NCBI GenBank assembly: GCA_017431005.1 | Contig: JAFRLY010000044.1 | Span: forward strand, 1-64,000 | Reading direction: 5' to 3' | DNA length: 64,000 nt | Origin: Clostridia bacterium | GTDB taxonomy: Bacteria > Bacillota > Clostridia > Christensenellales > Aristaeellaceae | Part shown: positions 9,624 to 38,730 of the stretch, in pieces | Numbering within the stretch: position 1 is the first letter of the stretch | Layout of the letters: each line of letters starts with the position of its first letter | Notes under the pieces: generated by a model | What the model was told of the DNA's origin: nothing | The model's input: only the letters and a program-made list of their open reading frames with translations | The model's database searches: none | Made by a program: the position numbers and the translations under genes

Positions 9624-11372
9624 ATGATTAAGAAGCTGGCGGCCCGGGTCCGCCAATACAAACGCCAGGCCATCCTGACGCCCCTCTTCATGGTCGGCGA
9701 GGTGGCCATGGAAGCCCTGATTCCCCTCGTCATGAGCTGGCTGATTGACCGGGGCGTCGAAGCCGGCAACATGGGCCAGATCTTTCTCTACGGCGGCGTC
9801 CTGATCCTGACCGCCCTGATCAGCCTGCTTTCCGGCACCATGAGCGGCCGGATGGCTGCCGTGTCCTCCGCCGGTTTCGCCCGGAACCTGCGGCACGACA
9901 TGTATTACAACATTCAGGATTTTTCCTTCTCGAATATCGACAAGTTCAGCACTTCCTCCATCATCACGCGGCTGACCACCGACGTGACGAACGTGCAGAA
10001 CGCCTTCCAGATGATTCTGCGCATGGCGGTGCGGGCGCCCCTGACCCTGATCTTCTCCATCATCATGGCCTTCACGATCAATGCCCGGATCAGCCTGGTG
10101 TTCGTGTTCACGATGCCGGTGCTGGCCCTCGGCATCGCGACGATCATGACCCGGACGCACCCGATCTTCAAGCGGGTATTCAAGACCTACGACAAGCTGA
10201 ACAACGTGGTGCAGGAAAACCTGCGCGGCGTCCGCGTGGTGAAGAGCTTCGTCCGGGAGGACTACGAGGAAAAGAAGTTCAACACCATCTCCGAGTCCAT
10301 CTACACGGACTTCGTGCACGCGGAAAAGAACCTCGCCTTCAACGGCCCCCTGATGATGACCTGCATCTTCGGCTGCACCCTGGTCATCTCCTGGCTCGGC
10401 GCGAAGGCGATCATCGCCTCCGGCAACAATCCCGCCCTGGGTCTGACCACCGGCCAGCTGATGAGCCTGATCACCTACGTGATTCAGATTCTCGGCAGTC
10501 TGATGATGGTTTCCATGGTCTTCCTGATGATCACCATGTCCAGGGCCTCCGCGCAGCGTATTGTCGAGGTGCTGGACGAGAAAACCGACATCACCTCCCC
10601 GGAGAACGCCCGGACGGAGATCGCCGACGGCTCCATCGACTTTGACCACGTTTCCTTCAGCTATGCCAGCCGCAGCGAGCGGGCCACCCTGGAGGACATT
10701 GACCTGCATATTCCCTCCGGCGCTGTCGTCGGCATCCTCGGCGGCACCGGCAGCGGCAAGTCCACCCTGGTGCAGCTGATTCCCCGGCTGTACGACGTAT
10801 CCGGAGGCTGCGTCCGGGTCGGCGGAGAGGACGTCCGCAGCTACGACCTGACCGCCCTGCGGGAAAGCGTCGCCATGGTGCTGCAGAAGAATGAGCTCTT
10901 CTCCGGCACAATCAAGGATAACCTGCGCTGGGGCAACGAACAGGCCACCGATGAGGACATCATGGAAGCCTGCCGCCTGGCCCAGGCGGATCCCTTCATT
11001 CAGGACTTCCCGGACAAGTATGACACCTGGATCGAACAGGGCGGCACCAATGTGTCCGGCGGCCAGAAGCAGCGCCTGTGCATTGCCCGGGCCCTGCTGA
11101 AAAAGCCGAAAATCCTGATCCTGGACGACAGCACCAGCGCTGTGGACACCCGGACGGACGCCCTGATCCGGGCGGGTTTCCGCAGCTACATTCCTGATAC
11201 CACCAAGCTGATCATCGCCCAGCGCGTCGCCTCCGTCAAGGACGCGGACCTGATCATCGTGCTGGACAACGGCCGGGTCGTCGACACCGGCACCCATGAG
11301 GAGCTGCTGGCCCGCTGCGAAATCTACCGCGAAGTGCATGACTCCCAGACGAAGGGAGGCGAGGATCAATGA
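9624..11372 (+). CDS. ABC exporter half-transporter, degenerate-site subunit
   Basis: A 582-residue type IV exporter half: six membrane helices (about 1-310), then an ATPase domain. Walker A GGTGSGKST and signature VSGGQ are intact, but the Walker B sequence ILILDDSTSAVD has Asp where the catalytic Glu should be. That is the mark of the TM287/BmrC-type subunit of a heterodimer in which one ATP site is non-catalytic. The partner starts at 11369, overlapping by four bases (ATGA), so the two are translationally coupled. Such pairs export drugs, lipids or peptides; the substrate here is unknown. Confidence 0.9.
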   Translation: MIKKLAARVRQYKRQAILTPLFMVGEVAMEALIPLVMSWLIDRGVEAGNMGQIFLYGGVLILTALISLLSGTMSGRMAAVSSAGFARNLRHDMYYNIQDFSFSNIDKFSTSSIITRLTTDVTNVQNAFQMILRMAVRAPLTLIFSIIMAFTINARISLVFVFTMPVLALGIATIMTRTHPIFKRVFKTYDKLNNVVQENLRGVRVVKSFVREDYEEKKFNTISESIYTDFVHAEKNLAFNGPLMMTCIFGCTLVISWLGAKAIIASGNNPALGLTTGQLMSLITYVIQILGSLMMVSMVFLMITMSRASAQRIVEVLDEKTDITSPENARTEIADGSIDFDHVSFSYASRSERATLEDIDLHIPSGAVVGILGGTGSGKSTLVQLIPRLYDVSGGCVRVGGEDVRSYDLTALRESVAMVLQKNELFSGTIKDNLRWGNEQATDEDIMEACRLAQADPFIQDFPDKYDTWIEQGGTNVSGGQKQRLCIARALLKKPKILILDDSTSAVDTRTDALIRAGFRSYIPDTTKLIIAQRVASVKDADLIIVLDNGRVVDTGTHEELLARCEIYREVHDSQTKGGEDQ

Positions 11373-13330
11373 GTGAGCAGAAGAGAAAGCCCCCTGTCCA
11401 GCCCGCTCCCATGCGCGGCCCCCGCGGCATGGTCATGGGTCCCCGTCAGCCCATCAACAAGGACACCGTCATCCGGCTGTTCGGCTATATCAAACCCTAC
11501 TGGCCCCGGCTGCTGATCGTGCTGGCCTGCATTCTCCTGAACGCCGTCGCCACAGCCTCCGCCGCCACCTTCCTGGGCCGGATCATCGACGATCACATCA
11601 CACCGCTGCTGGCCAGCCATTCCGACGACTTCAGCGGGCTGAAGATTGCCATCCTGCAGATGGCCGGCCTGTACGCCCTGGCCATCATCGCCAGCTTCAC
11701 CCAGGCGAGGATTATGGCCGTCGTCAGCCAGAGCGTGCTGCGCAGGGTCCGGGACGAGATGTTCGCCCATATGCAGACCCTGCCCATCCGGTATTTCGAT
11801 ACCCACACCCACGGCGAGGTCATGAGCCACTACACCAACGATACGGACACCCTGCGGCAGATGGTTTCCCAGGTGCTGCCCCAGAGCATTTCCTCCCTGA
11901 TCACCCTGATCGTCGTGTTCATCTCGATGATCGGCTGCAGCGTCTGGCTGACCCTGCTGGTCATGCTCAGCTCCGTCTTCATGATCATGGTCACCGCGAA
12001 GCTCGGCGGCCGCAGCGCTTCCTTCTTCGTGAAGCAGCAGACCTCCCTGGCCTCCCTCAACGGGTTTATTGAAGAGATGGTCAACGGCCAGAAGGTGGTC
12101 AAGGTTTTCAACCATGAGCCCCAGGCCAAAAAGGAATTTGACGAAAAGAACGACGAGCTGTGCGGGAACGCAACGGAGGCCAACAAGCTGGCCAACATCC
12201 TGGGCCCTGTGAACAACAACCTCGGCCACCTGCAGTACGTCATCCTCGCGCTGGCCGGCGGCGCCATGGCGATTGCCGCGGTGCCGAACCTCACCATTCC
12301 CGGCGGCATGGGCGTGCTGACCCTGGGCGCCATCGCTGCCTTCCTGACCCTGAGCCGCAACTTCATGCAGCCCATCAACCAGATGGCCCAGCAGATCAAC
12401 TTCATCGCCATGGCCATGGCCGGCGCGGGCCGGATCTTCGCCCTGATGGACGAGAAGGAAGAGGAGGATCATGGCTACGTCACGCTGGTGAACGCCAAAG
12501 AGGTGGACGGCCAGCTGACGGAGACCCCGGAGCATACCGGCCTGTGGGCCTGGAAGCATCCCCACACGGCGGACGGCTCCATCACCTACACGAAGCTGGA
12601 GGGCGACGTGGTCATGGTGGACGTCGACTTCGCCTACGAGCCGGAAAAGCCCGTGCTGCATGACATTTCCCTGTACGCGCGCCCCGGCCAGAAGGTCGCC
12701 TTCGTGGGCGCCACCGGCGCCGGCAAAACCACCATCACCAACCTGATCAACCGGTTCTACGATATCGCGGACGGCAAGATCCGCTACGACGGCATCAACA
12801 TCAACAAGATCCGGAAGTCCGACCTGCGCCGCTCCCTGGGCATCGTGCTGCAGGACGTGAACCTCTTCACCGGCACCGTCATGGACAACATCCGCTACGG
12901 CAAGCTGGACGCCACGGACGAGGAATGCATCGCCGCGGCAAAGCTGGCCAACGCCGATGACTTCATCACCCGCCTGCCGGACGGCTACAACACCGTGCTC
13001 AAGGGCGACGGCAGCGGCCTGAGCCAGGGCCAGCGCCAGCTGATCTCCATCGCCCGGGCGGCAGTTGCGGATCCGCCGGTCATGATCCTGGACGAAGCCA
13101 CCTCCTCCATCGACACCCGGACCGAAGCGCTCGTGCAGCGCGGCATGGACCGGCTGATGCAGGGCCGCACGGTCTTCGTCATCGCCCACCGCCTCTCCAC
13201 CGTGCAGAACAGCGACGTCATCATGGTGCTGGACCACGGCCGGATCATCGAGCGCGGCAGCCACGACCAGCTGATCGCCGAAAAGGGACAGTATTACCAG
13301 CTGTACACCGGCGCCTTCGAGCTGGAATAA
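11369..13330 (+). CDS. ABC exporter half-transporter, catalytic-site subunit
   Basis: A 653-residue partner of the preceding subunit, with an N-terminal proline-rich extension of about 25 residues (PPVQPAPMRGPRG) before six membrane helices. Walker A is GATGAGKTT, and Walker B MILDEATSSID keeps the catalytic Glu. Its signature is LSQGQ, not LSGGQ. Together with the Asp in the partner this builds one active and one degenerate ATP site, as in TM287/288, BmrCD and LmrCD. The insertion near residues 370-405 (before the nucleotide-binding domain) is longer than usual. Confidence 0.9.
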   Translation: MSEQKRKPPVQPAPMRGPRGMVMGPRQPINKDTVIRLFGYIKPYWPRLLIVLACILLNAVATASAATFLGRIIDDHITPLLASHSDDFSGLKIAILQMAGLYALAIIASFTQARIMAVVSQSVLRRVRDEMFAHMQTLPIRYFDTHTHGEVMSHYTNDTDTLRQMVSQVLPQSISSLITLIVVFISMIGCSVWLTLLVMLSSVFMIMVTAKLGGRSASFFVKQQTSLASLNGFIEEMVNGQKVVKVFNHEPQAKKEFDEKNDELCGNATEANKLANILGPVNNNLGHLQYVILALAGGAMAIAAVPNLTIPGGMGVLTLGAIAAFLTLSRNFMQPINQMAQQINFIAMAMAGAGRIFALMDEKEEEDHGYVTLVNAKEVDGQLTETPEHTGLWAWKHPHTADGSITYTKLEGDVVMVDVDFAYEPEKPVLHDISLYARPGQKVAFVGATGAGKTTITNLINRFYDIADGKIRYDGININKIRKSDLRRSLGIVLQDVNLFTGTVMDNIRYGKLDATDEECIAAAKLANADDFITRLPDGYNTVLKGDGSGLSQGQRQLISIARAAVADPPVMILDEATSSIDTRTEALVQRGMDRLMQGRTVFVIAHRLSTVQNSDVIMVLDHGRIIERGSHDQLIAEKGQYYQLYTGAFELE

Positions 13331-25569: not shown

Positions 25570-27993
25570 ATGGAACGGATTTACGATCCGAAGCTGATTG
25601 AAAAAAAGTGGCAGGACTACTGGCAGGAGCATGAAACCTTCAAAACGGACGTGTGGGATTTCTCCAAGCCCAAGTTCTACGCCCTGGACATGTTCCCCTA
25701 TCCCAGCGGGGTCGGCCTGCACGCCGGCCATCCGGAAGGCTACACCGCCACGGACATCGTCAGCCGCATGAAGCGGATGCAGGGCTACAACGTGCTGCAC
25801 CCCATGGGATACGACAGCTTCGGCCTGCCGGCGGAGCAGTATGCCGTTTCCACCGGGCATCATCCGGAAGGCTTCACCCAGCGGAATATCGAAACCTTCT
25901 CCCGTCAGCTGAAGGAGCTCGGCTTCGACTATGACTGGTCGAAGATGATCGCCACCAGCGATCCGGAGTTCTATAAATGGACCCAGTGGATCTTCAAGCA
26001 GCTCTACCTGGACGGGTACGCCCAGTATATCGACATGCCCGTCAACTGGTGCGAGGAGCTGGGCACCGTGCTGAGCAATGACGAGGTCATCGACGGCAAG
26101 AGTGAGCGCGGCGGCTATCCCGTGGTCCGGAAGAACATGAAGCAGTGGGTCATCAACCAGCCCGCCTTCGCCGAAAAGCTGCTGGAAGGCCTCGAGGAGA
26201 TCGACTGGCCGGAGAGCACCAAGGACATGCAGCGCCACTGGATCGGCAAGAGCGAAGGCGTTGAGGTGAAATTTCAGATCGTCGGCGGCGGGGAATTCAG
26301 CATCTTCACCACCTGTATCGAAACCATCTACGGCATCACCTTCATGGTGCTGGCGCCCGACGGGCAGCTGGTGCAGGATCTGATGCCCCGGATCAAAAAT
26401 CAGGAAGAAGTCAGGGCCTATATTGAAGAAACCCGCAAAAAGAACGACATGGACCGGACGGAGCTGAACAAGGGCAAGAGCGGCTGCCGCCTGGAGGGCG
26501 TCAAATGCATCAACCCCGCCAACGGGAAGGAAGCGGAGCTCTTCATCGGCGACTTCGTGCTGGCCAGCTACGGCACCGGCGCGGTCATGGCCGTTCCGAG
26601 CCACGACCAGCGCGACTTTGAGTACGCCGTCGCCCATCATATCCCGATGATCCAGGTCATCGACGGGGCCGACGTCAGCGAACACGCCTTCGAGAAGCAC
26701 GATTATCTGGGCAAGGGCTGCAGGCTCATCAACAGCGAGGAATTCACCGGGCTCACCGTGGAGGAAGCCAAGGAAGCCATCACGCAGAAGCTTGAAAAGA
26801 TGGGCGTCGCGAAGCGCACCGTCAACTACCATTTCCGGGAGTGGATCTTTGCCCGCCAGCGCTACTGGGGCGAGCCCGTTCCGGTCGTGCATACGGAGGA
26901 CGGCGGCATTTATCCGCTGCCGGACGAGGAGCTGCCCCTGATCCTGCCGGAGCTGGAGGACTATAAAGGAAAGAACGGCCGCGCTCCCCTGGAGAACGCC
27001 GTGGAATGGAAGCAGTATGACCGCAACGGCGTGAAGGGTACCCGGGAAACCTCCACCATGCCCGGCTCCGCCGGCTCCAGCTGGTACTACATGCGCTACA
27101 TCGATCCCCACAACGACAAGGCGCTGGCGGATCCCGAGCTGCTGAAGCACTGGCTGCCCGTGGATCTGTACATCGGCGGACCGGAGCACGCGGTGGGCCA
27201 TCTGATGTACAGCCGGATCTGGAACCGCTACCTGTACGATAAGGGCATCTCCCCGGTGAAGGAGCCCTTCAAAAAGCTCGTGCACCAGGGCATGATCCTG
27301 GGCGAGAACGGCATCAAGATGGGCAAGCGGTATCCCGAATTCGTCGTCAATCCCAGCGACATCGTCCGGGAATACGGCGCCGACACCCTGCGCCTGTACG
27401 AAATGTTCATGGGCCCGCTGGAGGTCAGCAAGCCCTGGAGCAAGGACGGCGTGGCCGGCGCCCGCCGGTTCCTGAACCGCGTGTGGGCCTTCTTCTCCAA
27501 CGAGGAGAACATCACGGCGGAAAGCGACGGCTCCCTGGACCGGATTTTCCACCAGACCGTCAAAAAGGTCTCCGAAGACTTCGCCTCCCTGGGCTTCAAC
27601 ACCGCCATCAGCCAGATGATGATCTTCGTCAACGCCTGCTACAAGGCCGGCGCCTGCCCGAAGGCCTATGCCGAAGCCTTCGTCCAGATGATCAGCTGCA
27701 TCTGCCCCCACATCGGGGAGGAGCTCTGGCAGCTGCTGGGCCATGAGGAATCCATCGCCTGCGCGCCCTGGCCCGTCTGGAACGAGGAGATGATGAAGGA
27801 GGACACCATTCAGATCCCCGTACAGGTGAACGGCAAGGTCCGCGCCACCATCGACATCGGCGTCAGCGAGGAGCAGGACACAGTGCTGGCCAAGGCTCAC
27901 GAGATGCGGAATGTGCAGGCCTCCATCGCCGGCAAAACCATCGTCAAGGAGATTTACGTCAAGGGCCGGATCGTCAATATCGTCGTCAGATAA
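25570..27993 (+). CDS. leuS: Leucine--tRNA ligase
   Basis: An 807-residue class Ia synthetase that charges tRNA-Leu. The HIGH signature appears as HAGH in GVGLHAGHPEGYTATD. The CP1 editing domain (about 220-420) includes the GTGAVMAVPSHDQRDFEYA region with the Thr-rich and Asp sites used for editing. The KMSKS loop reads KMGKR (IKMGKRYPEFVVNPSD), a variant form. The C-terminal anticodon-binding helices and the short C-terminal domain (VQVNGKVRATIDI) are complete. The start ATG 25570 follows GGAAGGA. A strong terminator ends the gene. Confidence 0.96.
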   Translation: MERIYDPKLIEKKWQDYWQEHETFKTDVWDFSKPKFYALDMFPYPSGVGLHAGHPEGYTATDIVSRMKRMQGYNVLHPMGYDSFGLPAEQYAVSTGHHPEGFTQRNIETFSRQLKELGFDYDWSKMIATSDPEFYKWTQWIFKQLYLDGYAQYIDMPVNWCEELGTVLSNDEVIDGKSERGGYPVVRKNMKQWVINQPAFAEKLLEGLEEIDWPESTKDMQRHWIGKSEGVEVKFQIVGGGEFSIFTTCIETIYGITFMVLAPDGQLVQDLMPRIKNQEEVRAYIEETRKKNDMDRTELNKGKSGCRLEGVKCINPANGKEAELFIGDFVLASYGTGAVMAVPSHDQRDFEYAVAHHIPMIQVIDGADVSEHAFEKHDYLGKGCRLINSEEFTGLTVEEAKEAITQKLEKMGVAKRTVNYHFREWIFARQRYWGEPVPVVHTEDGGIYPLPDEELPLILPELEDYKGKNGRAPLENAVEWKQYDRNGVKGTRETSTMPGSAGSSWYYMRYIDPHNDKALADPELLKHWLPVDLYIGGPEHAVGHLMYSRIWNRYLYDKGISPVKEPFKKLVHQGMILGENGIKMGKRYPEFVVNPSDIVREYGADTLRLYEMFMGPLEVSKPWSKDGVAGARRFLNRVWAFFSNEENITAESDGSLDRIFHQTVKKVSEDFASLGFNTAISQMMIFVNACYKAGACPKAYAEAFVQMISCICPHIGEELWQLLGHEESIACAPWPVWNEEMMKEDTIQIPVQVNGKVRATIDIGVSEEQDTVLAKAHEMRNVQASIAGKTIVKEIYVKGRIVNIVVR

Positions 27994-31948: not shown

Positions 31949-33763
31949 TCAGGAAAGAATACTGCTGGTGGTTTCGTCCTCATACTGCCGGGTATAGAGC
32001 CGGTAATACGGGCCCTTCGCCGCCAGGAGCTCCTCATGGGTGCCCCGCTCCACAATCTTTCCGTCGTTGACGACCAGGATCAGATCCGCGTCCCGGACGG
32101 TGGAAAGCCGGTGGGCAATCACCAGGGAGGTCCGCCCCTGAATAATGGTCTCAATCGCTGTCTGAATCTTCTGCTCGGTCAGGGTGTCCACCGAAGCCGT
32201 GGCCTCATCCAGCACCAGGATCCGCGGATCGGCCAGAATTGCCCGGGCAAAGGAGATCAGCTGCTTTTCGCCGGTGGAAAGCATATCGCCGCCCTCACCG
32301 ACGTCCGTATCGATGCCCTTTTCCATCCGGGCCACCACCTCGTCGGCGGAAACCAGGCGCAGGGCCTGCTGAATCTGCTCCTCCGTGGCGTTCGGGTTGC
32401 CGTAAAGCAGGTTTTCCCGGATCGTGCCGGAGAACAGGTGCGGCGTCTGGAGCACGTAGCCGATGGCGCTGTGGAGCCAGAGCTGGCTCCGCTCCCGGGC
32501 GTCCCGCCCGTCGATCAGCACCCGGCCCTCCGTCGGCTCAAAGAAGCGGCAGACCAGGTTCACCAGCGTGCTCTTGCCGGCCCCGGTTTCCCCGACGATG
32601 GCAATATTGCTGCCGAAGGGGATCTCCAGGTTGAAATGCTCCAGCACATACTCGTCGCCGTCCGGATAGCGGAAGGAGACGTCCTCAAAGGCGATATCCC
32701 CGCGGATGGGCTCCCAGTTTTCCTTCTTCGGCAGGAAGCTGTCGCCGTACTTCGCGATGACCTCCGGGGAGTCCGCCACATCGGATTTCGTGCCCAGCAG
32801 GCGGGTCAGGCGCTCAATATTCACCTGGGTGGTGATCACGTCGGAAATGGCGTCCACGATCCAGCGCACAGGCTCCATCATACCCTGGGCATAGGTCATG
32901 AACATCGAGAAGGTGCCCACCTCCGAGGCGGCGATATAACCGCCCTGCCAGAGCACGATGGCCAGCGCCAGGGAGGAGGCCAGATGCATCGTCACGGCAA
33001 ACATGCCGCGGAGCCTGGCCGCCCGGATGCTCTTCTGCCTCATTTCCGAAGTATCGCCGATAAAGTCGCTGGTCATCTTCTGCTCGATCACCAGGGTTTT
33101 GATCGTTTTCGCGCCGGTGATGCCCTCATTGAAATCCCCGGTGATCTTGCTGTTCAGCTCCCGGATCTGCCGGTTGGCGTGAATCAGCTTCGCCTGGAAC
33201 AGGGAGAACAGCACCGCGATCAGCGGCAGGATCACCATGACCATCAGCGCCAGACGCAGGTTGATCGCCAGCATCACCACCAGGGAGCCCACCAGATAGC
33301 TGATGTGCCACACGCAGTCCATCAGGGACCAGGAGACCAGGGAGCCGATGCGCCCGGTATCGCTCATGACCCGGGAATGGATATAGCCCACGCTGTTCTG
33401 ATTAAAGTAGCTGAAGGACAGCGTCTGCAGATGGTTGAAGGCCGCGGAGCGCAGGTCCCGGTTCACGGAAACCTCCGTTTCCATGGCGCCTTTGCAGGAG
33501 ATGAAGTTCATGACCGCCGCGAAGAGAATCGCCAGGACGTACAGCGCCAGATAAACCGGCAGGGTGTCCAGGGTCTTCAGGGCGATGAAATGGTCCAGCG
33601 CGTAGCGCTGCAGCAGCGGCAGCAGAATATCCACCGCCGAGCCGCCCAGGCCGCAGACCACCATGACCGTCAGTATCTTCCGGAAGGGCTTCAGGTAGGG
33701 GATCAGCCGGGGAATGCCGAAAAACGGCAGGAAAGAGGAATCCTTCTTCACATTGTTTTCCAT
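31949..33763 (-). CDS. ABC exporter half-transporter, catalytic-site subunit
   Basis: A 604-residue half-exporter, with six membrane helices then an ATPase domain. Walker A is GETGAGKST and Walker B ILVLDEATASVD keeps the Glu. Its signature reads LSTGE instead of LSGGQ. This degenerate signature pairs with the Asp-type Walker B of the partner encoded just upstream, giving one dead and one live ATP site. The ATG overlaps the partner's stop (TAATG), so translation is coupled. The pair resembles BmrCD/LmrCD multidrug exporters. Confidence 0.9.
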   Translation of the reverse strand: MENNVKKDSSFLPFFGIPRLIPYLKPFRKILTVMVVCGLGGSAVDILLPLLQRYALDHFIALKTLDTLPVYLALYVLAILFAAVMNFISCKGAMETEVSVNRDLRSAAFNHLQTLSFSYFNQNSVGYIHSRVMSDTGRIGSLVSWSLMDCVWHISYLVGSLVVMLAINLRLALMVMVILPLIAVLFSLFQAKLIHANRQIRELNSKITGDFNEGITGAKTIKTLVIEQKMTSDFIGDTSEMRQKSIRAARLRGMFAVTMHLASSLALAIVLWQGGYIAASEVGTFSMFMTYAQGMMEPVRWIVDAISDVITTQVNIERLTRLLGTKSDVADSPEVIAKYGDSFLPKKENWEPIRGDIAFEDVSFRYPDGDEYVLEHFNLEIPFGSNIAIVGETGAGKSTLVNLVCRFFEPTEGRVLIDGRDARERSQLWLHSAIGYVLQTPHLFSGTIRENLLYGNPNATEEQIQQALRLVSADEVVARMEKGIDTDVGEGGDMLSTGEKQLISFARAILADPRILVLDEATASVDTLTEQKIQTAIETIIQGRTSLVIAHRLSTVRDADLILVVNDGKIVERGTHEELLAAKGPYYRLYTRQYEDETTSSILS

Positions 33764-35604
33764 TACGCTGTCACCTCCTCCCGGGACAGAGTCTGGATTT
33801 CATAGATCTGCCGGTAAAGCCCGGGCTGCTGCCGCAGCTCCTCCGGCGTGCCCAGCTGCGCCACGTGACCCCGGTCCAGCACCAGCACCTGGTCCGCCTT
33901 GGACAGGGTGGTGATCCGGTGGCTGATCAGAATGATCGTGGCGGAGCCGAAGCGCTTTTCCAGTTCCCGTCGGATTCTCGCGTCCGTTTCCGTATCCACG
34001 GCGGACAGGGAATCGTCGAACACCATGACCGGCGCGTTCTGCGTCAGCATGCGGGCAATAGCCGCCCGCTGCTTCTGGCCGCCGGACAGGGTCACGCCGC
34101 GCTCGCCCACAAAGGTGTCATATCCCTTGGCAAAGCCCTGGATGGTTTCCTCCAGGCAGGCCGCCCGCGCAGCCTCCCGCATTTCCTCCTCAGCCATGGC
34201 GGAGCGGGTGATCCCCAGGTTTTCCTTCAGCGTGCGGGAGAAGAGATAGGGCTCCTGCAGCACGATGCCGATGTTCTTCCGCAGATGATCCAGACGGATT
34301 TTGCGGATATCCGTACCGCCCACGGTGATCTTCCCGTTTTCCTCCGGCAGCTCATACAGCCGGTCCAGCAGGTAGACCAGCGTGCTTTTGCCGGAGCCGG
34401 TGCCGCCCAGGATGCCCAGGGTTGTGCCGGCCGGAATGGTCAGATGGATGTCGTGCAGCATCTCCGGCGCGCCTTCGTAGGCAAAGGAAACATGGTCGAA
34501 GCAGATATCGCCCGTCATCGGCGCGTCGGATGCCCCGGGCTGATCCTTCTCCTCCTCCGCTTCCATAATATAGGCGATACGGTCAATGCCGACGCCGGCC
34601 TTGCTCATGTCGGAAATCATCCGGCCCAGCTGGCGCACCGGCCAGACCAGCATACCGTTGTAGCTCAGAAACGCGATATACTCGCCGCTGGTCATTTCTC
34701 CCCGCAGGCAGAAAAGCACGCCGAACACGACCACCAGCAGAATCTGGATACCGGAAAGGATATCGCTTGAGGACCAGAACAGGCTCATCAGCCGCCCCAG
34801 CCGGATCCAGAGGTTGGTGTAGGATTTGTTCTGCACATCAAACCGGTCCCGCTCATACCGTTCCCGGCCGAAGGCCCGCACGACCCGCACGCCCGTCAGG
34901 TTTTCCTGCGCCATGGCGGAAAGGCGGCCTTCGCTCTCATCGCATTCCTGGAAGCCCTTCCGGAATTTATGATGGAAGAATATGGAATACCAGACGATGA
35001 CCGGCAGGGGAATCATCGCGATCAGCGTCAGCCGGACATTCATGCCCAGCATGAAGGTGACGCTGAGCACCAGCAGAATGGCGATGCGGATCAGGCTGGT
35101 CATCTGCTCGGATATGAAGTTCCGGGTCGTCTCAATGTCGCTGGTGCAGCGCTGGATGATATCCCCGGTATGATTCTTCATGTGCCACTGGAAGGGGAGC
35201 CGCTCAATATGGCCGTACAGCGTATCCCGCATGGTTTTCACCAGGGTCTCGCTGCCCCGGGCGTTCATCACCCGGAACCCGTACAGGGCGGCCACCTTGA
35301 CCACGGCCACCGCCACAACGGCCAGCGCCATGATCCACAGCCGGGTCCGCAGCGCCTCCGCCCCGCCGGCAGCCTGCAGCAGGCCCTGCACGAGGGGGCT
35401 CAGATTCTCCGTGCCCTGGCCGCCGAGCACGTTGTCCACGGTCACCCGGATGATCTGCGGCGTAATCATATCCGCCAGGGAAGACAGGGCGGCGCACGCC
35501 ATGCAGATCACAAAAAACGCCTTGCTGCCCTTCAGGAAGCGAAGGATCAGCTTTCCCCGGTCCGGCTTCGCCGCCGGGGGATTTGTTTGTATGTTTTCGC
35601 TCAT
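33763..35604 (-). CDS. ABC exporter half-transporter, degenerate-site subunit
   Basis: A 613-residue partner of the previous subunit. Walker A GGTGSGKST and signature LSGGQ are intact; Walker B reads VMVFDDSLSAVD, with Asp for the catalytic Glu. Six membrane helices precede the ATPase domain. The start ATG 35604 has TAAAGGAG upstream. It is the first structural gene of the operon whose leader (35.6-35.95 kb) holds a promoter with direct repeats, a short ORF and an intrinsic terminator. The same design as bmrBCD suggests antibiotic-responsive expression; this is inference. Confidence 0.9.
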   Translation of the reverse strand: MSENIQTNPPAAKPDRGKLILRFLKGSKAFFVICMACAALSSLADMITPQIIRVTVDNVLGGQGTENLSPLVQGLLQAAGGAEALRTRLWIMALAVVAVAVVKVAALYGFRVMNARGSETLVKTMRDTLYGHIERLPFQWHMKNHTGDIIQRCTSDIETTRNFISEQMTSLIRIAILLVLSVTFMLGMNVRLTLIAMIPLPVIVWYSIFFHHKFRKGFQECDESEGRLSAMAQENLTGVRVVRAFGRERYERDRFDVQNKSYTNLWIRLGRLMSLFWSSSDILSGIQILLVVVFGVLFCLRGEMTSGEYIAFLSYNGMLVWPVRQLGRMISDMSKAGVGIDRIAYIMEAEEEKDQPGASDAPMTGDICFDHVSFAYEGAPEMLHDIHLTIPAGTTLGILGGTGSGKSTLVYLLDRLYELPEENGKITVGGTDIRKIRLDHLRKNIGIVLQEPYLFSRTLKENLGITRSAMAEEEMREAARAACLEETIQGFAKGYDTFVGERGVTLSGGQKQRAAIARMLTQNAPVMVFDDSLSAVDTETDARIRRELEKRFGSATIILISHRITTLSKADQVLVLDRGHVAQLGTPEELRQQPGLYRQIYEIQTLSREEVTA

Positions 35605-35630
35605 GGAAACTCCTTTACGGTCTGGTTCAG

Positions 35631-35662
35631 GGAACAGGCGGGAAATCCCCGCAGGCTGTTCC
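35631..35662 (-). other. Stable hairpin just before the ABC start
   Basis: GGAACAG (35631-35637) pairs with CTGTTCC (35656-35662), with an inner GCGGG/CCCGC stem (35638-35642 with 35648-35652) and a three-base bulge. It lies between the leader terminator and the ABC ribosome site at 35611-35617 and may take part in folding alternatives. Confidence 0.5.
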
Positions 35663-35679
35663 GGCTCCGAAAGGGACAG

Positions 35680-35714
35680 AAAAAGCCCGCTTCCGGTTCA
35701 CTCCGAAAGCGGGC
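35680..35714 (-). terminator. Leader terminator of the ABC operon
   Basis: Minus-strand stem GCCCGCTT (35714-35707) with AAGCGGGC (35692-35685), an inner CGG/CCG pair set, and five T residues (35684-35680). It lies between the leader ORF stop (35737) and the first ABC gene, the position of an attenuator. Confidence 0.85.
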
Positions 35715-35736
35715 ATTGCAATCAAAACAGGATATT

Positions 35737-35829
35737 TCAGTCCCGTGCGCCGCAGCCTGATCCGGAGTAAGAGAAACTAACGGTGTTCTTCACTGCATTA
35801 ATCATGATACTGCCTCTCCATCTTCTCAT
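35737..35829 (-). CDS. Short leader ORF upstream of the ABC exporter
   Basis: An ORF of 30 codons (ATG 35829) or 22 codons (internal ATG 35805). The 22-codon form is favoured by GGAGAGG seven bases upstream; the longer has AAGGAG only three bases away. The shared C-terminus is VSFSYSGSGCGARD. It lies between a good promoter and an intrinsic terminator, directly ahead of a BmrCD-like exporter pair. In Bacillus subtilis the bmrB leader peptide controls bmrCD by ribosome-mediated attenuation, and this layout matches. It could instead be a small exported peptide that the transporter carries. Peptide sequence family not recognised. Confidence 0.6.
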   Translation of the reverse strand: MRRWRGSIMINAVKNTVSFSYSGSGCGARD

Positions 35830-35884
35830 GTTCTCCTTCTCCGCACCGGGGAGCTATGGAACCGGTATCCCTTGCTGTTCAACG

Positions 35885-35935
35885 CACTTCAGGCACCTGA
35901 TCAACCACGCAATCCGAATCTTACACTTCAGGCAC
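35885..35935. repeat. Pair of 12-base direct repeats at the ABC promoter
   Basis: CACTTCAGGCAC occurs perfectly at 35885-35896 and 35924-35935, 39 bases apart. The second copy fills the promoter spacer beside the -10 box; the first lies just downstream of the predicted start. This fits an operator bound by a regulator at two sites. Confidence 0.7.
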
Positions 35936-35946
35936 GCGAATGTCAA
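35918..35946 (-). promoter_or_regulatory. Promoter of the leader ORF and ABC operon
   Basis: On the minus strand TTGACA (35946-35941) and TAAGAT (35923-35918) with a 17-base spacer. The leader to the first ABC gene is about 305 bases long. Confidence 0.8.
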
Positions 35947-36020
35947 TAAAAACCTCCTCCCGGCCTGTTTTTCACCGGAAAGAGGATAAATTACGCATTA
36001 TCTCTGTCACATAATATGTG

Positions 36021-36338
36021 TTATTTCCTGTTTTTTTCACTCAGGGATTCCATCAGCTCCTGAACCGTCCTCCTGTCCCGGTCCTGCAGTCTGCTCCACT
36101 GCCGAAGCAGGCGCCGCTGTTCTCCGGACAGACCCATTTCATTCTCAGCGTCGAAGAACTGTGCGAGTGTCACGCCAAAAGCCCTGCAGATACTTTCCAG
36201 GGTAGCCAGGGAAGGCTCCGTACCTCTTTTGAACATATTCCGGATTGTGCTCCAGGGAATATCCGCTTCCTTCGCCAGGCGGTAAATCGTCCATTCCCGT
36301 TCATCCATGAGCTGCTGCATCCTTGCTCTGACGTCCAT
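36021..36338 (-). CDS. XRE-family transcriptional regulator
   Basis: A 105-residue protein with an N-terminal Cro/CI helix-turn-helix (WTIYRLAKEADIPWSTIRNMF, about 16-37, then SLATLESICRAFGVTLAQFF) and a charged C-terminal helix. The start ATG 36338 has GAGGTGA upstream. It is divergent from the second small XRE gene at 36582, and the shared AT-rich region contains TGTCATA repeats. It ends about 75 bases before the ABC promoter and could be its regulator, but no direct evidence shows this. Confidence 0.85.
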   Translation of the reverse strand: MDVRARMQQLMDEREWTIYRLAKEADIPWSTIRNMFKRGTEPSLATLESICRAFGVTLAQFFDAENEMGLSGEQRRLLRQWSRLQDRDRRTVQELMESLSEKNRK

Positions 36339-37659: not shown

Positions 37660-38730
37660 TTACTTGAGTTCCGCGAAGTACTTGATGGTGCGGACCATCT
37701 GGCTGGTGTAGCTGTTCTCGTTGTCGTACCAGGACACAACCTGCACCTGATAGGTGTCGTCGTCGATCTTGGTGACCATGGTCTGGTTGGCATCGAACAG
37801 AGAGCCGTAGGTCATGCCGATGATATCGGAGGAGACCAGCTTCTCAGTGGTGTAGCCGAAGGATTCGGAGCTCTGCGCCTTCATCGCGGCGTTGATGGCT
37901 TCCTTGGTGACATCCTTGCCCTTGACAACGGCAACCAGGATGGTGGTGGAACCGGTGGGAACCGGCACGCGCTGGGCGGAGCCGATCAGCTTGCCGTTCA
38001 GCTCGGGGATAACCAGGCCGATAGCCTTGGCAGCACCGGTGCTGTTGGGCACGATGTTGGCGGCGCCGGCACGGGCACGCTGCAGATCGCCCTTCCGATG
38101 GGGGCCGTCCAGGATCATCTGGTCACCGGTGTAAGCATGCACGGTGGTCATGATGCCGCTGACGATCGGGAAGGTGTCGTTCAGAGCCTTGGTCATCGGG
38201 GCCAGGCAGTTGGTGGTGCAGCTGGCGGCGGAGATGACGGTGTCTTCAGGCTTCAGAACATTGTGGTTGACGTTGTAAACGATGGTGGGCAGATCGTTGC
38301 CCGCGGGAGCGGAGATAACGACCTTCTTGGCGCCGGCCTGGATATGGGCCTCAGCCTTGGCCTTGGAGGTGTAGAAGCCGGTGCACTCCAGCACGACGTC
38401 CACATCCAGAGCCTTCCAGGGCAGGTTGGCAGCCTTGGGCTCGGCATAGATGGTGATTTCTTTGCCGTCAACGGTGATGGAGCCGGGGACCTTCACGGTC
38501 TTGCCGTCTTCTTCAAAAACGGGCTCTTTGCTGGACACGGTGTGCTTGTTTTCGCCGATCACGCCGCAGTATCCCTTCTGAGCAGTATCATACTTGAGCA
38601 GGTGAGCCAGCATCGCGGGGCTGGTCAGGTCATTGATCGCGACCACTTCGTAGCCTTCAGCGCCAAACATCTGACGGAAAGCAAGACGGCCGATGCGGCC
38701 AAAACCATTGATAGCAACTTTCACAGCCAT
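37660..38730 (-). CDS. gap: Glyceraldehyde-3-phosphate dehydrogenase
   Basis: A 356-residue type I GAPDH, the glycolytic enzyme that makes 1,3-bisphosphoglycerate from glyceraldehyde-3-phosphate with NAD+. The Rossmann motif NGFGRIGR (8-15) and an Asp at 34 (INDLTS) favour NAD over NADP. The catalytic Cys171 is in ASCTTNC and the partner His198 in TTVHAY. It is about 20 residues longer than the usual 335, mainly in the 60-80 region. Its codon use is strongly biased, as in highly expressed genes. It stands alone, without pgk or tpi, with its own promoter and terminator. Confidence 0.97.

Follow-up and report, generated by a model that had tools for sequence, protein, structure and literature searches.

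The heterodimeric ABC exporter BmrCD of Bacillus subtilis is preceded by a promoter, a leader ORF of 53 codons (bmrB) with an intrinsic terminator inside its coding region, and a possible antiterminator; when translation of the leader is lost, expression is low and non-inducible (PMC4191407). In Escherichia coli, a ribosome stalled at the start of the uORF toiL alters pairing in the leader of topAI, and tetracycline and retapamulin act at the toiL start codon; topAI translation, and thereby Rho termination, is the controlled step (PMC12121999). Terminator-based attenuators before ABC exporters were also described as ABC-leaders, one of which precedes a multidrug export operon in lactobacilli (PMC2965389), and for patAB (PMC4319486); the accounts used here name no leader ORF for either. 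Repeated emergence of short leader ORFs has already been suggested (PMC2965389).

A comparable leader was analyzed in the window, i.e. the whole stretch of 64,000 nucleotides (64 kb), in front of a pair of ABC exporter genes. We lean towards reading it as a ribosome-sensing transcription attenuator which re-uses the terminator of the glyceraldehyde-3-phosphate dehydrogenase (GAPDH) gene gap. This kind of attenuator is already known, and the locus is probably a new case, with an ordinary mechanism and an interesting origin. As in bmrB-bmrCD, a promoter, a leader ORF, an intrinsic terminator and a possible antiterminator are followed by a heterodimeric exporter, and in the proposed model the leader would likewise be silent when its ORF is not translated (PMC4191407). 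In contrast to bmrB, the ORF has 30 or 22 codons, it ends before the terminator instead of containing it, and the terminator looks taken over from gap. The switch of the window differs from toiL in being an intrinsic terminator, and from the ABC-leaders and the patAB attenuator, as these are presented in the accounts cited, in having a leader ORF. The features, in ascending coordinates, are as follows.

31949..33763, minus strand, ABC exporter subunit 2 (Walker B ILVLDE; signature LSTGE)
33763..35604, minus strand, ABC exporter subunit 1 (Walker B VMVFDD, degenerate; LSGGQ)
35631..35662, minus strand, second hairpin, from the sequence
35685..35714, minus strand, intrinsic terminator (regions 3 and 4), a stem of 12 pairs (9 GC) followed by TTTTT
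35737..35829, minus strand, leader ORF of 30 codons, MRRWRGSIMINAVKNTVSFSYSGSGCGARD, from the reading-frame translation; stop 22 nt before the terminator
35761..35776, minus strand, distal leader codons (region 2), partner of either region 1 or the left arm of the terminator
35831..35842, minus strand, SD region of the leader ORF (region 1), from sequence and position
35918..35946, minus strand, promoter TTGACA-17-TAAGAT, 10 of 12 consensus matches
35953..35985, minus strand, terminator-like hairpin 3' of the HTH gene, just ahead of the promoter
36021..36338, minus strand, HTH protein gene between gap and the leader; an ORF matching an RstR-family model below its cut-off (32.8 vs 80 bits)
37660..38730, minus strand, gap (GAPDH) gene, from ORF and translation

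The elements named in the initial annotation, namely the promoter, an ORF of 22 or 30 codons with a ribosome site, the terminator, the second hairpin and the coupled ABC pair, are all present, on the minus strand. The 22-codon alternative begins at an in-frame ATG at 35805. Between both ATGs, a 7-codon frame MERQYHD (35821-35798, minus strand) lies in another reading frame, so that both ATGs are only candidate starts of the leader ORF. The ATG of this frame aligns with the start of the leader ORF at a related locus (L010, see below) and its stop overlaps the 22-codon start; re-initiation from the one to the other is conceivable. The second hairpin leaves the SD of the exporter (35616-35610) uncovered.

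The exporter genes (35604-33763 and 33763-31949) overlap by one base. The DD in Walker B of subunit 1 and the LSTGE of subunit 2, split between the subunits, presumably make up one degenerate ATP site, and two adjacent half-exporters with one such site correspond to a heterodimer of the BmrCD/TM287-288 type. Among the best 60 matches to solved chains, BmrC/YheI was the top bacterial half-exporter for subunit 1 (E 1.6e-91), TM0288, followed by BmrD/YheH, held this place for subunit 2, and eukaryotic full transporters outscored the bacterial half-exporters for the exporter subunits. The earlier term 'BmrCD-like' is thus apt for the type of exporter, given the heterodimer motifs and the YheI, TM0288 and YheH matches, and does not extend to orthology. 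An orthologous exporter gene was found in 31 of the 36 other genomes of the genus which were searched first, with 72-82% identity. A second ABC exporter pair lies at 9693-13309 on the plus strand of the window; its upstream region contains neither an SD-led ORF nor a terminator by the rule applied. Six upstream regions of other exporters in the same genome were also inspected (five of first genes and one, L008, of a second gene), four of which are without a terminator by the rule. In L005, a terminator is present and an ORF absent. In L002, a short hairpin follows a 7-codon GTG frame which is formally SD-led; this was rejected as a leader, as the frame reads as the tail of the upstream gene.

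Within the window, 22 terminator-like hairpins were examined for an SD-led ORF (6-45 codons) with its end 12-40 nt ahead of the hairpin, and the leader terminator alone had one; in a background of 51 terminators which included this one, it was again the sole case. Dinucleotide shuffling of the leader produced such an ORF in 257 of 5000 sequences (with at least 20 codons in 94 of 5000). Taken together, the survey and the shuffles indicate that the leader ORF alone is unusual, not extraordinary. The predicted leader peptide contains no run of one amino acid as in leaders of the trp/his type, and a tRNA scan of the 64-kb window gave no hit.

For comparison, 103 upstream regions of exporter orthologues were collected. 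Almost all come from this family and the rest, a few, from further families of the order; two copies in one genome (L136 and L137) were both counted. Terminators were called with a fold-based rule, and an ORF had to be SD-led and to end 12-40 nt before the terminator. All 33 gap-linked regions had a terminator and none of them an SD-led ORF. The 70 regions without an adjacent gap divided into 37 with and 33 without a terminator by this rule. An SD-led ORF was present in 11 of these 37 (L001, which is the window, L010, L036, L037, L077, L079, L080, L097, L099, L118 and L128), at a stop-to-hairpin distance of 22-30 nt. The 11 leaders represent four or five lineages, and the peptides are unrelated between lineages. 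An earlier, stricter perfect-stem rule had given 6 of 11 cases without gap, 0 of 27 gap-linked cases and 0 of 50 other terminators; it missed imperfect stems, its ORF filter left out L037 and L077, and the fold-based rule was used instead. A blind extension by 26 more upstream regions (15 with a terminator) contributed no new ORF leader, so the layout is restricted, not general.

The SD region was tested for pairing with the segment between the early ORF codons and the terminator. In 10 of 11 leaders, no more than 22 of 1000 shuffles paired equally well (mean z -2.9; window 22/1000, L097 84/1000); in this set L113, whose terminator lies 47 nt from the ORF stop, took the place of L128, and the segments had been fixed after most of the pairings had been noticed by eye. 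In the controls, the exporters' own starts (mean z +0.28, n = 49) and the gene starts of the window (mean z +0.14, n = 25), 1 start each was at or under 0.05. For the window, the longest unbroken helix between regions 1 and 2 is ordinary (782/1000 shuffles), and tests of 1:2 pairing with wide segments were weak (75/1000 and 254/1000). These data suggest that such leaders can recur with unrelated peptides while spacing and SD pairing stay the same, in which case a search based on peptide similarity would overlook them.

The initial annotation had further proposed that leader codons (ACTCCG) pair with CGGAGT in the left arm of the terminator. This pairing was recovered and extends to UUACUCCGGA / UUUCGGAGUGA (35770-35761 with 35708-35698), with most of CGGAGT shared between the end of the left arm and the loop of the terminator. 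The duplex of the 30-codon ORF with the left arm was equalled in 16 of 1000 shuffles. In a cross-leader test, it was above chance in the window (6/300), L036 (2/300) and L037 (12/300), and in neither the remaining 7 of 10 ORF leaders nor any of 21 gap-linked controls. An antiterminator duplex common to the ORF leaders was therefore discarded.

For folding, the nascent leader of the window was taken as far as the terminator loop, and the sequence under a ribosome was masked, at every other codon in turn. In the ribosome-free state, 1:2 forms and 2:3 is absent. A ribosome at codons 1, 3 or 15 yields 2:3 at 0.98; at codons 5-13 it allows 1:2 to re-form, so that antiterminating positions are few. 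At codons 17-25 neither pairing is seen, and near the stop 1:2 forms once more. As soon as the right arm is included, the terminator reaches 0.99-1.00 in every ribosome state, hence only a kinetic antitermination would be feasible. Placing a ribosome at codon 1 clearly raised left-arm occupancy over the ribosome-free state in 8 of 10 leaders. The left arms of L036 and L037 are occupied in both states, and in L097 a ribosome at the stop occupies the left arm as well as one at the start.

From this, the following mechanism is proposed for the window. The exporter pair would be transcribed from its own promoter, through a short SD-led ORF and then a strong terminator. If no ribosome binds, the SD region would pair with the distal codons, the terminator (3:4) would form and the exporter would stay off. 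A ribosome near the end of the ORF would either cover region 2 or permit 1:2 pairing again, with the same outcome. A ribosome held at the first codons would cover region 1, and 2:3 would form before the right arm is made, letting the polymerase read through into the exporter. The inducing event would thus be an early ribosome stall, with both a silent and a fluently translated leader being off. The model implies that the leader ORF is translated and that antitermination is kinetic. The signal is likely to be where the ribosome stands rather than which peptide it makes. The low, non-inducible expression without bmrB translation and the drug action at the toiL start codon fit such switching on by an early stall. 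The original proposal of a ribosome-mediated attenuator before a BmrCD-type exporter remains the best reading, its geometry and SD-region pairing being common to some of the orthologous leaders.

The terminator appears to have a history of its own. Directly before terminator and exporter, gap was found in 33 of 40 other loci of the genus, without such a leader ORF, and the terminator lies between gap and the exporter in all 33. In many of these loci, the hairpin sequence is near that of the window; it differs in L021, L032, L034 and L109. In the window, gap is located upstream on the same strand and ends ~1.9 kb from the terminator, with the HTH gene and small frames in between. A DNA search with the leader gave no match to it in the 44 other genomes of the genus, and across all 45 genomes similarity never started upstream of 35718, the edge of the terminator, outside the own genome. 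As gap-linked terminators are common in the genus and no leader similarity extends beyond the terminator edge, the terminator is seemingly older than the leader ORF. Judged from these sequences, gap seems to be the ancestral upstream neighbour of the exporter, and we infer that the leader terminator is the old gap terminator, re-used once gap and exporter became separated. This suggests that a ribosome-sensing switch can arise from the terminator of a neighbour.

In a tree of the exporter proteins (38 rows), the window groups with L009 and L010 (support 92/90, not a starred fork) inside a 23-row group whose 20 further members are gap-linked. L010 likewise has gap upstream, at ~3 kb, together with a promoter-like sequence and an ORF of 10 codons whose stop lies 23 nt ahead of a similar hairpin. 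The alignment score of the leaders of the window and L010 was reached by 1 of 1000 shuffles, with similarity chiefly at the SD. Under the rules applied, both a terminator and a leader ORF are lacking in L009.

In other genera of the family, the orthologous exporter is preceded by a conserved RNA of ~85 nt. In it, a promoter-like sequence is followed by CAUCGGAGGG, then by a variable hairpin and finally by a terminator that carries a small hairpin on top. It was found at the exporter loci L078, L088, L121, L123, L124, L140, L141, L142, L145 and L147, also at L084-L087, and at MATE loci (e.g. L173, L174 and L177). A model built from ten leaders detected the RNA in 75 of 308 genomes of the family; 7 of the 75 belong to the genus of the window, the own genome not being among them. 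The 30 loci listed comprise 13 before the exporter, 12 before a MATE-like gene (one scanned and confirmed, the others recognized by the look of the translation) and 5 not assigned by the script. The second hairpin with its top stem is predicted by folding, hairpin 1 was recognized by eye only, and of 110 positions in 22 RNAs, 96 agree with a possible 5' pseudoknot pairing, a modest result since 27 of 2000 shuffles equalled it. In an Rfam search up to E 10, only six matches, all below the gathering score, were obtained, in six sister-genus loci, and the RNA itself had no Rfam match; up to E 1, there was one weak match in L077 (sX11, E 0.55).

By its described features, the RNA resembles the guanidine-IV riboswitch and its variant Gd4v and is a candidate member of this group: it would have two hairpins, of which the second is a terminator with a small hairpin on top, and perhaps a pseudoknot, and it also stands before MATE genes (PMC7736828, PMC9788692). 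The Gd4v ligand is unknown, and Gd4v is enriched in mammalian guts (PMC9788692). The term 'ABC transporter' does not occur in the main texts of PMC7736828 and PMC9788692, supplements aside. Through the sister-genus RNA, the exporter would be tied to a riboswitch group with a partly unknown ligand, and the loci offer candidate genes for finding it. The initial annotation had assumed induction by ribosome-targeting drugs. This assumption is weakened by the RNA in the sister genera, as the natural signal or substrate of the exporter may be another one; the RNA suggests that the exporter may naturally serve to remove a nitrogen-rich compound instead of ribosome drugs.

In another genus, an SD-led frame of 5-14 codons ending in Arg-Pro-stop precedes the exporter at 4 of 9 loci (L082, L083, L143 and L144). 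The frames read MRQNETCVPHAMRP, MMNTRP, MRLRP and MRQNEQRMSAAVRP; no terminator with a T run was present at these loci by the perfect-stem rule. From their sequence, they are possible candidates for arrest peptides, and they speak again for a control through the ribosome. A wider and doubtful proposal would join these observations: one exporter would be served by several switches, i.e. a Gd4v/guanidine-IV-like RNA in some genera, gap plus its terminator in most of the genus of the window, or ribosome-position leaders with unrelated peptides in four or five lineages, with the gap terminator being re-used in the window. The exporter would then add a new gene class to the orphan Gd4v regulon, and the leader of the window might sense the same toxic gut compound indirectly, via ribosomes slowed at the ORF start.

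Three other explanations were weighed against the attenuator. The terminator could be a fossil of gap, stranded by an insertion, with a fortuitous ORF in front and an exporter weakly expressed by constant read-through. We consider this possible and rather unlikely: the hairpin is indeed common to gap-linked relatives, the leader ORF is unique and without a uniquely conserved peptide, and 5% of the shuffled leaders contain such an ORF, yet an own promoter stands right before the leader, the same geometry recurs in L010, whose leader aligns (stop distances of 22 and 23 nt), as well as in unrelated leaders, and SD pairing is beyond chance in 10 of 11 leaders. It is improbable that the ribosome is stalled by the nascent peptide SFSYSGSGCGARD as such, in the presence of a given drug or upon shortage of an amino acid. 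Conservation of the ORF in related leaders, the test set beforehand for the initial annotation, did not hold at the sequence level in the order, the genus or 84,980 species genomes. GCGARD-stop occurred in 3 of 200 genomes of the order, namely in the own genome and at two loci where it sits in a different frame of a longer ORF. A looser motif had 14 places in 11 of 45 genomes of the genus, and the short frames printed there had no methionine ahead of the motif except in the window. With a longer motif, 4 stretches were found in the 84,980 species genomes, at a roughly estimated chance expectation of about 2, and are unconvincing as leaders: the L071 match opens with a stop codon, no methionine occurs in the frames of L073 (13 codons) and L074 (12 codons), and L072 is the end of a 92-codon frame. 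The 10-codon peptide of L010 is unrelated to that of the window although the leaders align. Besides this lack of conservation, the missing run of a single amino acid argues against peptide-specific arrest, for which the leader peptides of ermC and cat-86 are precedents (PMC4191407) and which would be in line with the Arg-Pro-stop frames before the same exporter.

Marginally less probable still is an RNA leader which binds a ligand or protein and works without translation of the ORF. The whole-leader fold, which is better than 99 of 100 shuffles (z -2.36), and the structured RNA before the same exporter in other genera are compatible with such a leader. Around the leader, there was no Rfam match at the gathering score, nor any at the leader locus up to E 1; the sister-genus RNA model did not match the leader either, its sole match in the window being at 27978 (E 0.11), and a conserved relative of the leader is absent from the 44 genomes of the genus.

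Two minor observations concern the sequence between gap and the leader. The 14-base string GGTACGATAGGCAT occurs just after gap in the window (37556) and at 1143 in L026, where it lies in foreign-looking sequence before the end of gap; judged from these two copies, it may mark the border of a mobile element. A short frame MKMDDAIVEFGFDCKVRKLSDKTVANYQKQLR (37493-37395, minus strand) directly follows a strong hairpin with a T run, and we take this frame to resemble the start of a tyrosine integrase.
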